A DNA stretch of 64,000 nt from Natronolimnobius baerhuensis (GTDB lineage Archaea > Halobacteriota > Halobacteria > Halobacteriales > Natrialbaceae), in the NCBI RefSeq assembly GCF_002177135.1, contig NZ_MWPH01000002.1, forward strand, positions 434,001-498,000. Direction: 5' to 3'. This document shows, in pieces, positions 2,623 to 7,745 of the stretch. The stretch's first letter is position 1; every line of letters starts with the position of its first letter. The notes under the pieces were generated by a model. It was not told the origin of the DNA. It was given only the letters and a program-made list of their open reading frames with translations, and searched no databases. The translations under genes were made by a program, and so were the position numbers.

Positions 2623-2701
2623 GTCGACTCGAGCAAGGCGAAATCATCTCAGAGAGGGAGAAATTATCTTAGGGATGTCGGTCTAGAAATGGGTGGTGAG
2701 T

Positions 2702-2723
2702 GAGAGTGGATTTCGTGTGCTTT
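2702..2723 (+). repeat. Origin recognition box-like repeat, copy 1
   Basis: This 22-bp site holds the invariant core ATTTCGTGTGCTT, preceded by GAGAGTGG. It has the same orientation as copies 2 and 3. Archaeal Orc1/Cdc6 proteins bind repeated boxes beside their own gene, so I read this as the cognate box of the orc gene at 3339. It differs from the canonical oriC1-type haloarchaeal box as I remember it, so identity as a true box is inference. Confidence 0.65.
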
Positions 2724-2776
2724 TGGCTGTCACGGAGTCGGTTCACATGGAGCGGTATTCGGATGTAGAACAGTGA

Positions 2777-2798
2777 GAGAGTACATTTCGTGTGCTTT
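2777..2798 (+). repeat. Origin recognition box-like repeat, copy 2
   Basis: Same 13-bp core ATTTCGTGTGCTT, preceded by GAGAGTAC and followed by T and C. It lies 75 bp after copy 1, in the same orientation, and immediately before the 17-bp tandem repeats. Confidence 0.65.
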
Positions 2799-2808
2799 CG
2801 CCTCGAGA

Positions 2809-2876
2809 TGGTCGGTTGGGTGAGACGGTCGGTTAGGTGAGAGGGGTGGGTAGGTGAGATGGTTGGTTCGGTGAGG
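2809..2876 (+). repeat. Four 17-bp tandem repeats, G-rich
   Basis: Four contiguous 17-bp units (2809-2825, 2826-2842, 2843-2859, 2860-2876) follow the pattern nGGTnGGTnnGGTGAGA. All four keep the 3' GGTGAG. The repeats make one strand strongly G-rich and the other C/T-rich, which could favour unwinding, strand exchange or protein loading. They sit between box copies 2 and 3 in the presumed origin. Confidence 0.75.
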
Positions 2877-3090
2877 AAGGGAGGCAGGCAAACAGGGAGA
2901 TGGATAATTGGACAAGACGGTTGGTTCGACGAGAGAAGGAAGGAGGCAGAAAGGAGTGGGTCCGAAGCGCGCAACCAGAAACAAATGATGGAGACACACG
3001 GACCGAAAATCCGAACGATAAAAACGAGCGGCCACGACTCACCAGTATCCCCCTCCATGCAGTCCCTGACTCACAACGGAGGCGATCCAC

Positions 3091-3161
3091 ACTCGAGCGC
3101 TCAGCGAGAAACCTGCAGACTCGAGTGCGCACCGAGAAACTGCAGACTTGAGCACTCGACG
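3091..3161 (+). repeat. Tandem repeat of about 28 bp, 2.5 copies
   Basis: Units at 3091-3118 and 3119-3145 share ACTCGAG, CGAGAAA and CTGCAG in the same order; a third unit (from 3146) is cut short. Each contains a PstI-like CTGCAG palindrome. It lies 27 bp before box copy 3. No function is known to me. Confidence 0.65.
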
Positions 3162-3187
3162 TAACTCGAATTGGACGTCAACGGAGT

Positions 3188-3209
3188 GAGAGTACATTTC
3201 GTGTGCTTC
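3188..3209 (+). repeat. Origin recognition box-like repeat, copy 3
   Basis: Core ATTTCGTGTGCTT preceded by GAGAGTAC, identical to copy 2 over the first 21 bases. It is the box nearest to the orc promoter, 130 bp before the orc start codon. Confidence 0.65.
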
Positions 3210-3301
3210 GGACGGCAGAACTGGGTGTGTTATCGGAGTGGCCCCGGCAGTGCTCGGTATCTCACTCACTGGAAGTGAGCAAACGAAACAGACGAAAGGA
3301 G

Positions 3302-3312
3302 GTTTTAAGTAG
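3302..3312 (+). promoter_or_regulatory. TATA box of orc1/cdc6
   Basis: GTTTTAAGTAG is centred about 30 bp before the ATG at 3339, the spacing expected for a leaderless haloarchaeal transcript. The following 25 bp hold short repeats (TAGTAGT and AGTAGTAC) around CAACAACC, which could be a self-binding site; that is inference. Confidence 0.5.
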
Positions 3313-3338
3313 TAGTGGTCAACAACCAGTAGTACTGA

Positions 3339-4535
3339 ATGTCTGGCCCGTTTAGTGATCTCACGGAAACTATCTTTGCCGATAAGTCCGTTCTGAGCGA
3401 GAGCTATCAGCCGGAAGCCATCCTCGAGCGAGACGAAGAAATCGACGCATTCAGCCACGCGCTTCAGGACGTGCTATTCGGCCGAGAACCTGAGAACGTC
3501 TTTCTCTACGGCAAAGCAGGACTTGGGAAAACAGCGGTCACGACGTACATGATGGGCGAGCTACAGTCCGAAGTCGAAGTCCGTGAAGACGCTGATGATC
3601 TACACGTCCACGAAATCAACTGCAACGGCAAGACACTGTTTATGGTGGTCAGACGACTGGTCAACGAATTACTCCCAGCGGATGCAAGCCCGTTTCCGAA
3701 ACGCGGACTCGGAACCGGCGATGCCTTTGACGAACTCTATACACAACTGGATCGACACGGTGGCACCCACCTGATCGTCTTCGACGAGATTGACCATCTG
3801 GACGACGTCGATACCCTCCTGTATGAACTCCCTCGAGCCCGCTCGAACGGCTATCTTACGGAGTCATTAGTCGGAATTATCGGCATCAGCAACAACTACA
3901 CATTTCGTCAGTCGCTCTCTGCAAAGGTTAAGGACACGCTCATGGAAACTGAAATCTCGTTCAGTCCCTACGATGCTGGCGAGTTGCGGACGATTTTACA
4001 CGACCGAGCGGATCGTGCGTTCGTCGACGGAGCCTGTGACGATTCAGCGATTGCGAAAGCTGCAGCGCTGTCGGCACAGGATATGGGGAATGCGCGACAG
4101 GCAATCGACCTGCTCCGCGTGGGCGCTGAAGTCGCCGAACGCAACAGTGACGAAATCGTCGACGACACGCATATCGAAAACGCCCGCACACTCGTCCAGC
4201 GTGGTCGCCTTCGAAACAAGATTCGTGATCAGACCGAACACGCTCAGTACATCCTCGAGGCAATCGCTAAACTCGAGGAACGCGGTGACGTCCCAGCCCG
4301 CTCGAAAGAGGTCCAAGAGGGCTACGAAACGGTGGCAACAGCCTACGGTGCAACACCACTAACGACGCTCAAGAGCATTCAGGATCACCTTTCAGACCTC
4401 CATATGCTCGGCTTTCTCGTTCGGCACGAACGGAACAAGGGCCTCAGCGGCGGCCAGTACTACGAGTACGAACTCGATCTCGATCCGATGATCGTCCTCG
4501 AGACGCGAGAGGAAATCGTCCAGCCAGCAGAATAG
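3339..4535 (+). CDS. orc1: Orc1/Cdc6 family replication initiator
   Basis: A 398-residue AAA+ ATPase of the Orc1/Cdc6 family, which recognises origin boxes, opens DNA and recruits MCM helicase. Walker A is GKAGLGKT (residues 58-65), Walker B FDEID (148-152), sensor 1 GISNN (182-186). The last roughly 110 residues have the spacing of the winged-helix DNA-binding domain. Length is usual for the family. The ATG at 3339 follows a TATA box at leaderless spacing. The gene stands alone and is bracketed by the same repeat on both sides, which marks it as the initiator of this locus. Haloarchaea carry several orc paralogues; which one this is cannot be decided from the window. Confidence 0.95.
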   Translation: MSGPFSDLTETIFADKSVLSESYQPEAILERDEEIDAFSHALQDVLFGREPENVFLYGKAGLGKTAVTTYMMGELQSEVEVREDADDLHVHEINCNGKTLFMVVRRLVNELLPADASPFPKRGLGTGDAFDELYTQLDRHGGTHLIVFDEIDHLDDVDTLLYELPRARSNGYLTESLVGIIGISNNYTFRQSLSAKVKDTLMETEISFSPYDAGELRTILHDRADRAFVDGACDDSAIAKAAALSAQDMGNARQAIDLLRVGAEVAERNSDEIVDDTHIENARTLVQRGRLRNKIRDQTEHAQYILEAIAKLEERGDVPARSKEVQEGYETVATAYGATPLTTLKSIQDHLSDLHMLGFLVRHERNKGLSGGQYYEYELDLDPMIVLETREEIVQPAE

Positions 4536-4561
4536 CGGCTGCGACCACCACTTTCTCGAGT

Positions 4562-4592
4562 GAAAGCACACGAAATCTACTCCCTCCCTCTC
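4562..4592 (-). repeat. Origin recognition box-like repeat, copy 4 (inverted)
   Basis: On the minus strand the core ATTTCGTGTGCTT is preceded by GGGAGTAG. It lies 26 bp after the orc stop codon and faces the left-arm copies. Confidence 0.65.
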
Positions 4593-4695
4593 AAACAGAG
4601 ACGGCCGAATAGCAGTCCACGACACGTATCGACCGTCACTGAGTCACAAATCTGCACTCGTGGTGTCCGGCAGTACACCCGCTGTCCCTCCATCG

Positions 4696-4724
4696 GAAGC
4701 ACACGAAATCCACTCCCTCTCACC
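4696..4724 (-). repeat. Origin recognition box-like repeat, copy 5 (inverted)
   Basis: On the minus strand the core ATTTCGTGTGCTT is preceded by GGGAGTGG and GTGAGA, very close to copy 1. With copy 4 it forms the inverted right arm of the origin. Confidence 0.65.
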
Positions 4725-4778: not shown

Positions 4779-7745
4779 ATGAGCGTCTCGCAACTGTGGC
4801 GCCGGTACTCGAGTGCGGCCGGGTTCGGAAACGGTGCTATCGGCGCATCGATTGTCTTTGTCGCTCTATTGCGCCCGCTTTTTGGACCCAGTGGACAGCT
4901 CCGCTGGGGAGATCGTGGCCTCGAGATGTCGCCGTGGGTTGCACTCGGAACCGGAATCATCCTCTTCGCTGGCGTCTCGGTTGCCGTGGTTGCGCTCACG
5001 CGACATCCACAGGGCAGGTTGGACCACCTCGCAGACCACTCTAACAGTGACCATGTCAAGGAGGCACAGTCTGGGACCACCGGATCGACAGTCCCAGAAG
5101 TACTGGCAGGCGAGGAGACCACAGCTGGCCAGTTCGCACTCGTCCAGACCAATGACGGCGAGTGGGTGTGGCACGCACTCCACTTCGAGACGCTGGCTGC
5201 AAGCCCCACCGGCGCGACATCTCGCTCAGCAGCCGCCGACAACGTAACGCACCTCCAGACAGCACTCGAGCGAGCCAGCAGTCACGAACTCGAGGATGCG
5301 GCGATTCGCATTTCGAATCTATCTGGCGATGACTGGACGTGGACGCTCGTCCGCCCCGACGGCGAGGCAGTCGCGACCGCTGCTGGCGACGCCACTGACC
5401 GCGAGCAGGTTGAGGCTGCAGTAAGCACGCTCAAAGACCGCGGTCCGGACGGGACGATCATCGACATTGGACGAGGCGCGTTCGCACTCACCGAACGAGA
5501 CGACCGCTGGCACTGGCACCTGGTCGACGATGAACGGACGACGCTGGCGGTCAGTTCCAAAGAGTTCCGCCACCGCGAGGATACCGAATCAGCCGCGACA
5601 GCCATCGGTTCGCTACTTACGGATGCACGCAGCGTCGCCGTCGAGACAGTTGCCGTCGAACTCGAGCAGGTCGAGGACACCGACCGCTGGACGTGGCAGA
5701 TCGTCGATTCACAGGGCGAGACACTCGTCGATGCAACCGCGACGTTCGACGACCGGACGGATGCCGAAGCCGCCGTGACGACCGTCCTCGAAGGACTCGA
5801 GTCGGCTGCGGTAACTGTCGCTGATCAATGTGCATACGAGTTATTCCCTGTCGAAAGTCAGTGGCACTGGCGACTCGTCGACGACACGGATCGTATCGTG
5901 GCTCACACACCGGTCGGTCGACGGACACGCGGGCAGGCCAGACAGGCTCTCGAGCAGTTCCGAGACGCAGCACCAAATGGTGCGATTACCAACTTCGAGG
6001 GTGCTGCCTACGAGATCCATCCGGCTGGTGGGACACTGGAAGCAGAGTGGCCAGACAGCACAGGAACTGATGACGCCACAGCCATGACCGACACCGCTAC
6101 AGGCACTGACAACACTCTATCAACGACCGACACCGCTACAGGCACTGACGACGCCAGATCCACGGACGCTACTGCCGCCACTGCCGGTCAGTGGAACTGG
6201 CGACTCGTCACGGACGACCGCACCTGTCTTGCAGTCAGTCCCGAACCGGCAGCCGATGCGGGTCACGCACGAGCAGCGATTAATCGACTCCAAGAGCAAG
6301 CCGTGAGCGCCGACATCTGTCACTTCGAGACCGCATCGTTTCGCGTCTACCAAACCGACGACGGTGAGTGGCGCTGGCGATTGCTCGATGCCGGTGGTGC
6401 CGTTCTCGGGGACAGCGATGGCGCTCACGACTCGAGAAACGACGCAATTGAGGCAATGCTGACGCTCAAAGAACGGACATCCGATTCCGAAGCTGCGGTC
6501 GTCGAAGTCGAAACCGCAACAGTCGAACTTCACACCGTCGGCGAGCAGTGGTCGTGGCGACTACTCGACGATACTGGCGTTCTCCTCGCAACGGCACCGA
6601 AACGGTATCCGAGCAAGGCGGCCGCACGGGAGGCTGCCAACCGCGTCCGAACACACTCGAGTGCCGAAAGCACCACGATGGATCGAGCCGCATTTCAACC
6701 GTTTTCCGACGACACAAACTCCGAGAACGCCCGTTGGCACTGGCGGTTCGTCCATCCGAGCGGAAAAACCCTCGCCGTCTCAGCCCGTGGGTTTGCCACA
6801 CGTGACGGTCTCCTCGAGCACGTCAGCGACCTTCGAGAGTTGGCAGCGACGGAGCGAACGCAGACGACCGGCCCGGTCACGGTCCAACTCGCGGGTGACG
6901 ATGCCTGTCGATTCCGGCTCCTTGATCACGACCGAACACCCATCGCCGAGTCGACAGTTCCGTATCCGACTCGCGATGCTGCACGAAACGCCATTGACTC
7001 CCTCGTCCGAGTTGCCCCGGATGCACCGCTATTTACAATCGACGAGGCAGTGCTCTGGCTCGAGTGCGCCGATACCAGCGCTGACGATGTCGCCGATACT
7101 AGCGCTGACGATGACGCCAATGCCAGCGCCGACGGTGACGCCGATGCCAACGATGACGATGGAAGCGACGAAGAGCACGCCGACTGGCGCTGGACACTCA
7201 TCGACGAGGAGCGAACGGTACTCGCACGCTCGCCCACACGAGACACACAGACCGCGCTGCGCTCGCAGATTGACAGCCTTCGCCGGCTCGCACCACACGC
7301 TGAACCCGTTCCACTCACAGGTGTCTCGTTCGACCTCGTTGAGCGTTCGGAAACGGACTCATCCACGACGGCAACCGAAGACACCCCACGCGAACGCTGG
7401 CAGTGGCGACTACTCGAGGCCGATGGCGAGCCAGTCGCAGTCGATGCCCGCCCCGGCGGCTCGAAAGCCGATGTCCACGAACGGATGGACAGTGTTCGGG
7501 ACTTGCTCGCGGACGCGGACGTCCTCACACTCGAGGAGCCGGTGTTCGAACTGTACGCCGACGAGGAGTGGGCGTGGCGACTGGTCGATACGACCGGCGA
7601 GACGCTCCTCGAGAGTACCCAGACGTATCCGACGCGACAGGCTGTGACGAACGCACTCGAGACAATGCGAACGACGCTTCCGGCGGGTGCTGTGACTGTC
7701 GCTGGGGCTGAAGCGGAGACAGAAACGGAGCCAGAGACAAACTAA
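4779..7745 (+). CDS. Membrane-anchored protein of about 13 tandem YegP/DUF1508-like repeats
   Basis: A 988-residue protein. Residues 15-75 contain two hydrophobic helices, so it is membrane anchored. From about residue 110 to the end the chain is a run of roughly 13 units of 55-75 residues. Each has a strand ending in W-x-W-R-L (WHWRLV, WRWRLL, WSWRLL, WAWRLV), then a turn, L-A-x-S, and a helix with A..A...L. This is the fold pattern of the DUF1508/YegP family (HVO_2922-like), which normally has one or two units. Unit 10 has lost the tryptophans (CRFRLL). Two units hold acidic or TDTATGTD-rich insertions coded by short DNA repeats. The ATG at 4779 gives the helices intact. Function is unknown; its place beside the origin may be chance. 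Confidence 0.75.
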   Translation: MSVSQLWRRYSSAAGFGNGAIGASIVFVALLRPLFGPSGQLRWGDRGLEMSPWVALGTGIILFAGVSVAVVALTRHPQGRLDHLADHSNSDHVKEAQSGTTGSTVPEVLAGEETTAGQFALVQTNDGEWVWHALHFETLAASPTGATSRSAAADNVTHLQTALERASSHELEDAAIRISNLSGDDWTWTLVRPDGEAVATAAGDATDREQVEAAVSTLKDRGPDGTIIDIGRGAFALTERDDRWHWHLVDDERTTLAVSSKEFRHREDTESAATAIGSLLTDARSVAVETVAVELEQVEDTDRWTWQIVDSQGETLVDATATFDDRTDAEAAVTTVLEGLESAAVTVADQCAYELFPVESQWHWRLVDDTDRIVAHTPVGRRTRGQARQALEQFRDAAPNGAITNFEGAAYEIHPAGGTLEAEWPDSTGTDDATAMTDTATGTDNTLSTTDTATGTDDARSTDATAATAGQWNWRLVTDDRTCLAVSPEPAADAGHARAAINRLQEQAVSADICHFETASFRVYQTDDGEWRWRLLDAGGAVLGDSDGAHDSRNDAIEAMLTLKERTSDSEAAVVEVETATVELHTVGEQWSWRLLDDTGVLLATAPKRYPSKAAAREAANRVRTHSSAESTTMDRAAFQPFSDDTNSENARWHWRFVHPSGKTLAVSARGFATRDGLLEHVSDLRELAATERTQTTGPVTVQLAGDDACRFRLLDHDRTPIAESTVPYPTRDAARNAIDSLVRVAPDAPLFTIDEAVLWLECADTSADDVADTSADDDANASADGDADANDDDGSDEEHADWRWTLIDEERTVLARSPTRDTQTALRSQIDSLRRLAPHAEPVPLTGVSFDLVERSETDSSTTATEDTPRERWQWRLLEADGEPVAVDARPGGSKADVHERMDSVRDLLADADVLTLEEPVFELYADEEWAWRLVDTTGETLLESTQTYPTRQAVTNALETMRTTLPAGAVTVAGAEAETETEPETN
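6086..6149 (+). repeat. 25-bp perfect direct repeat inside the YegP-repeat gene
   Basis: The same 25 bases occur at 6086-6110 and 6125-6149, 39 bp (13 codons) apart, coding TDTATGTD twice in an insertion of unit 6. A comparable 24-27-bp array coding ADTSADD-like units lies at about 7067-7165 in unit 11. Both look like in-frame slippage expansions. Confidence 0.8.

Follow-up and report, generated by a model that had tools for sequence, protein, structure and literature searches.

A candidate origin cassette with repeat boxes on both sides of an orc1/cdc6 gene in Natronolimnobius baerhuensis

The orc gene and its boxes

The window, that is, the whole stretch of DNA analysed here, comprises 64 kb (C2:434001-498000), and the locus described below lies at C2:437 kb. 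It contains an orc1/cdc6 gene of 398 aa on the plus strand (3339..4535). The encoded Orc1/Cdc6 protein is intact, with AAA+ ATPase, lid and winged-helix domains; it matches PF22703, PF09079, AAA families and TIGR02928 above the cut-off and is related to solved archaeal Orc proteins. Directly downstream (4779-7745) lies the gene for a 988-aa protein of repeats matching the HVO_2922 family, which also adjoins this orc in related genera.

The gene is surrounded by exact copies of the 13-mer ATTTCGTGTGCTT, found in the 64-kb window at 2710-2722, 2785-2797 and 3196-3208 on the plus strand and at 4564-4576 and 4697-4709 on the minus strand. The original prediction had placed five such repeats around a single orc1/cdc6 gene, three upstream in direct and two downstream in inverted orientation, and these positions and orientations were verified. 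Its 13-bp core is likewise real, but the repeat unit is actually 23 bp long: when a matrix was derived iteratively from the sequences flanking 26 orthologs, it gave a full box, GAGAGAGTACATTTCGTGTGCTT, of 33 bits. The left arm begins with box 1 (GTGAGAGTGGATTTCGTGTGCTT, 2700..2722, +) and box 2 (GAGAGAGTACATTTCGTGTGCTT, 2775..2797, +), both with the exact core and scoring 34.9 and 40.4 bits, respectively, in the matrix scan. Box 3 (3186..3208, +), also with an exact core, is the left member of a conserved inverted pair. Box 4 (3277..3289, -) reads GAGCAAACGAAAC, carries three mismatches to the inverted core and lies within a conserved CANACGAAACANACGAA element beside the TATA box. A BRE/TATA-like element, GGTTTTAAGTAG (3301..3312, +), is located 38 nt before the start codon and is conserved in 25 orthologs. 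Beyond the gene, box 5 (4564..4586) and box 6 (4697..4719), both on the minus strand, have exact cores, were recovered by the matrix scan and are separated by 133 bp.

Box 4 had been missed in the earlier count of five, and the inverted pair thought to be absent upstream of the gene is in fact present, since the degenerate box 4 pairs with box 3 (3196-3208) at a position conserved in relatives. Consequently, the downstream boxes look like a right arm that continues past the gene. Any helical phasing of the box spacing is weak at best. The upstream intergenic region also holds a G-rich 17-bp tandem repeat of 4.2 copies (2805..2875, +), with GC skew up to 0.67, which is not aligned in the genus mate.

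A genome-wide search for the core had been proposed as a check on the original prediction. In the whole genome (3.91 Mb), the five copies at the orc locus are the only exact ones, and copies with one mismatch occur elsewhere ten times, against five for a reversed control pattern. Within the window, the core with at most two mismatches gives 7 matches, compared with 0.93 expected from shuffles. Because the 23-bp matrix was trained on ortholog flanks, the support that counts is the scan of other DNA. Over the 1.26 Mb scanned on C2, the highest scores, 34-40 bits, belong to the five boxes and are followed by single matches of at most 28 bits, while nothing exceeds 12 in 0.76 Mb of C3; within the orc genes themselves, no score above 10 occurs in about 60,000 positions. 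The weak distal boxes on C2 were rejected as titration sites and treated as chance because they lie inside open frames. The absence of exact boxes elsewhere in the genome, their association with the Orc clade in 26/26 orthologs and the shift of the box sequence as the protein diverges support the assignment of the boxes to the orc gene of the window.

Conservation and distribution of the cassette

In the Orc tree, the window protein and its orthologs belong to a clade with support 100/98. The nearest named protein, at about 50% identity, is Halobacterium Orc8, which is sister to this clade; its locus was identified by matching published knockout primers (PMC1906834). The Halobacterium ortholog is not shown to be orc10: for the published orc10 knockout primers, no site in the compared loci came within 3 mismatches, although the primers for orc6, orc7 and orc8 did match. 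The orc gene is under strong purifying selection, with dN/dS of 0.03 relative to the genus mate at dS 0.94.

The layout of the locus is conserved together with the gene. All 26 orthologs are bracketed in the matrix scan by plus-strand boxes upstream and minus-strand boxes downstream (68/68 and 74/76 boxes in these orientations, respectively), counts that are not independent because the loci share ancestry. In 24 of the 26 a plus-strand box is found 136-156 bp upstream of the gene, and downstream arrays reach up to 6 boxes, the first of which starts right after the stop codon in 8 loci. Outside box 3, the element on the promoter side and the two downstream boxes, the flanks of the window gene and of the genus mate align at 49-54%; these parts, and the spacing of the downstream boxes, are conserved. 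A comparison of 25 promoters gives CANACGAAACANACGAA next to the TATA element, where several columns are invariant and box 4 is locked in position. This element represents the box in inverted and degenerate form, and in several relatives its match to the core has one or two mismatches.

The opposed orientation of the upstream and downstream boxes, kept in 26/26 loci, could also reflect looping (handcuffing), in which Orc bound on both sides pairs them across the gene rather than simply being titrated. Orientation can, however, be inherited through tandem duplication, and gene-to-box distances vary widely across the orthologs. Moreover, titration alone was proposed for oriC2-cdc6E of Haloarcula hispanica, where the boxes downstream are oriented like those nearest to the gene. 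Looping is regarded as improbable.

The distribution of the family is patchy: of the 125 genomes from the window's own family, 16 contain an ortholog. Genera from different families fall together in the tree, Halopenitus being placed within Natrialbaceae, for instance, which suggests that the orc cassette has moved between families by transfer. Relatives at 57-61% identity are found on plasmids with their own box arrays. Those of Haladaptatus sp. DYSN1 and Halocatena marina, both in the 58-59% identity range, have 11 downstream boxes and about ten upstream boxes spaced 56 bp, respectively. The window, the genus mate and two further genomes (G009 and G010) have both flanking genes in common, and Halobiforma shares the downstream gene; the cassette has therefore occupied its present site for some time. 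In Halobiforma haloterrestris the orc ortholog is broken by a TAG stop, with 253 aa before it, and boxes remain on both sides.

Origin signals and interpretation

Repeated inverted boxes beside an orc gene, a mark of replication origins, are represented here by the five exact boxes and the degenerate box 4. An AT-rich element between the paired boxes is absent: the stretch 3209..3276, to which no strand is assigned, is 40% AT. The corresponding stretch is AT-enriched in 21/24 orthologs, but not in the window. As noted in the original prediction, the box differs from the oriC1 type: the oriC1 box of the same genome is CCACTCGAAACAAAGGGGTGGGGGG, and the window box, read on the oriC1 strand, is AAGCACACGAAATGTACTCTCTC, so that only a CAC-N-CGAAA core is common to both. 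The G-string at the box end, GGGG in oriC1, is absent; its place is taken by a C/T run that reads GAGAG on the opposite strand.

A skew inflection at the locus, which had also been proposed as a check and whose lack had been named among the signs of refutation, was absent. At C2:437 kb no origin-type switch occurs; GC shows nothing unusual in its inflection, and at the 100-kb scale the keto inflection is opposite in sign to that of an origin. As a positive control, the same method placed the strongest 50-kb keto inflection of C3 at oriC1, which means that the test can detect a long-standing origin. A weak skew is nevertheless compatible with a minor origin. On C2, GC skew at the 100-kb scale has its strongest inflection of origin sign at about 743 kb, and no orc gene was found nearby.

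The lack of a skew switch is counted in favour of two explanations in which the locus does not function as an origin. The boxes may be operators through which Orc regulates its own gene and its neighbours. In each of the 25 promoters examined, box 4 does adjoin the TATA element, and the Orc1-2 proteins of other archaea, described as non-initiator regulators, offer a precedent (PMC9738581). However, multiple spaced boxes on two sides, up to 6 of them downstream and none at other genes, fit an origin or a sink better than an operator, and the plasmid relatives bear the same kind of array. A purely regulatory function is unlikely. Alternatively, the locus may be the relic of an acquired plasmid-type origin, whose orc gene and boxes persist although they no longer serve replication. 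The patchy distribution, the mixing of families in the tree and the interrupted gene of H. haloterrestris would be in agreement with such a history. The low dN/dS and the conservation of the boxes against diverged flanks speak against it, as do the common flanking genes, which imply a long stay without decay, and this explanation is considered unlikely.

The preferred reading, to which a probability of about 0.6 is assigned, is that of an orc1/cdc6-linked origin cassette with an Orc of a family near Halobacterium Orc8, whose own Orc binds the boxes and whose downstream boxes serve mainly as an initiator sink. According to this scheme, Orc made at the locus would bind its own 23-bp boxes, and boxes 3 and 4 would constitute the working pair, with boxes 1 and 2 lengthening the left arm. 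Duplex opening and MCM loading would start between boxes 3 and 4, at 3209-3276. Boxes 5 and 6, the right arm past the gene, would act mainly as a sink for Orc and thereby restrain initiation, and through box 4, which adjoins the TATA element, Orc may also regulate the transcription of its own gene.

This reading as a cassette draws on the confinement of the exact copies to the locus, the intact initiator-domain Orc under purifying selection, the bracket present throughout a well-supported clade, the position-locked inverted element beside the TATA box and the boxes retained in diverged flanks. The negative control by downstream boxes tested at H. hispanica oriC2 (PMC3936714) and the plasmid relatives with their own arrays point in the same direction. 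Counted against it are the missing skew switch, the AT content between the paired boxes, the mismatches of box 4, the missing G-string and a search of article text that found no binding or replication experiment on this Orc family. The articles read likewise contained no description of the family and its box type, and the core letters did not occur in their text. Taking together a box without a G-string, an inter-box stretch that is not AT-rich and the absence of a skew switch where oriC1 shows one, the most economical reading of the sequence is that the candidate origin is likely weak, recent or dormant in this genome.

Two-sided boxes and comparison with known systems

The original prediction regarded boxes on one side of the orc gene as the normal situation. 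This is contradicted by at least ten published two-sided cases, one of them tested, and by other orc loci in the same genome. Boxes in both flanks have been named for at least ten haloarchaeal orc genes (Wu 2012, PMC3528665). In a de novo repeat search of the present genome, the orc genes on C6 and C5 proved two-sided, well above shuffles, and that at C2:1114 kb marginally so, while those at C1:34 kb and C1:1259 kb have arrays upstream only. In bracketed loci, the downstream boxes have the direction of the upstream box nearest to the gene in 13 locus types and disagree in 3 (sign test p 0.011). This tally, in which box 4 was counted for the window family and apparent orthologs were collapsed, was scored by hand and not blind, after the pattern had been seen; it is only suggestive that a bracketed locus is a usual inverted array of which one arm extends beyond the gene. 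Tentatively, and with more doubt than confidence, haloarchaeal arrays may have a common plan, in which the start site would be marked by the one change of box orientation upstream of orc, and one arm past the gene would form a built-in initiator sink. The window family would be a clean case, with a G-string-free box and a sink arm tied to the orc promoter.

The locus corrects the impression that two-sided boxes are odd; the same layout had been described earlier in a related haloarchaeon and tested there. What is defined here is an Orc/box family with an invariant layout, spread over several haloarchaeal families. Since published origin predictions filter on the G-string, this box type may have been missed, and origins of the G-string-free type may escape such screens. 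If the orientation pattern holds, it would allow the start site in bracketed loci to be guessed from sequence.

Among known systems, oriC1 of the same genome (C3 about 232-234 kb) shares with the window locus the common core and an inverted pair, but has a G-string and a skew switch, and its protein is about 35% identical to the window Orc. The two-sided predicted origins of Wu 2012 (PMC3528665) likewise have boxes in both intergenic flanks of one orc/cdc6 gene, but were selected for a G-string, which the window box lacks. The repeats at the Halobacterium Orc8 locus are G-rich, belong to another type and do not exceed the shuffled maximum. The dormant oriC4-cdc6H of Haloferax mediterranei (PMC4595724) resembles the window locus in having an intact orc beside inverted boxes, here perhaps silent in the wild type; dormancy and firing were determined there by replication profiling, whereas here dormancy is only suggested by skew and composition.

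The closest parallel in layout is H. hispanica oriC2-cdc6E/oriC2D (PMC3936714), also a chromosomal second origin with two-sided boxes. In that system, the 11-box region downstream of cdc6E could be deleted only once oriC2 was gone (Wu 2014, PMC3936714). The downstream array lowers plasmid copy number, two downstream boxes giving an intermediate copy number, and it holds the origin in check, probably through titration of the initiator (PMC3936714). A corresponding orc is found in Haloarcula amylolytica at C51:33 kb; this Cdc6E-type gene is followed by about 11 boxes and, at a distance of about 20 kb, by an rRNA operon, and it matches the published oriC2-cdc6E (PMC3936714; rRNA distance PMC4441112). 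Of the window-family orc, H. amylolytica carries an incomplete second copy (G125:C35:3367-5889), divergent to the intact one across a shared upstream region. Boxes 5 and 6 are same-type boxes downstream of orc, as in oriC2/oriC2D, and in both systems the downstream boxes are oriented like the gene-proximal upstream boxes. However, the box of oriC2-cdc6E is of the AACACTTGCAGG type, and 11 downstream boxes stand against 2 in the window; its function was tested in H. hispanica. The window initiator is not orthologous to Cdc6E, as the Cdc6E-type protein is about 37-38% identical and falls outside the window clade. The two loci have their layout in common, but not their family.
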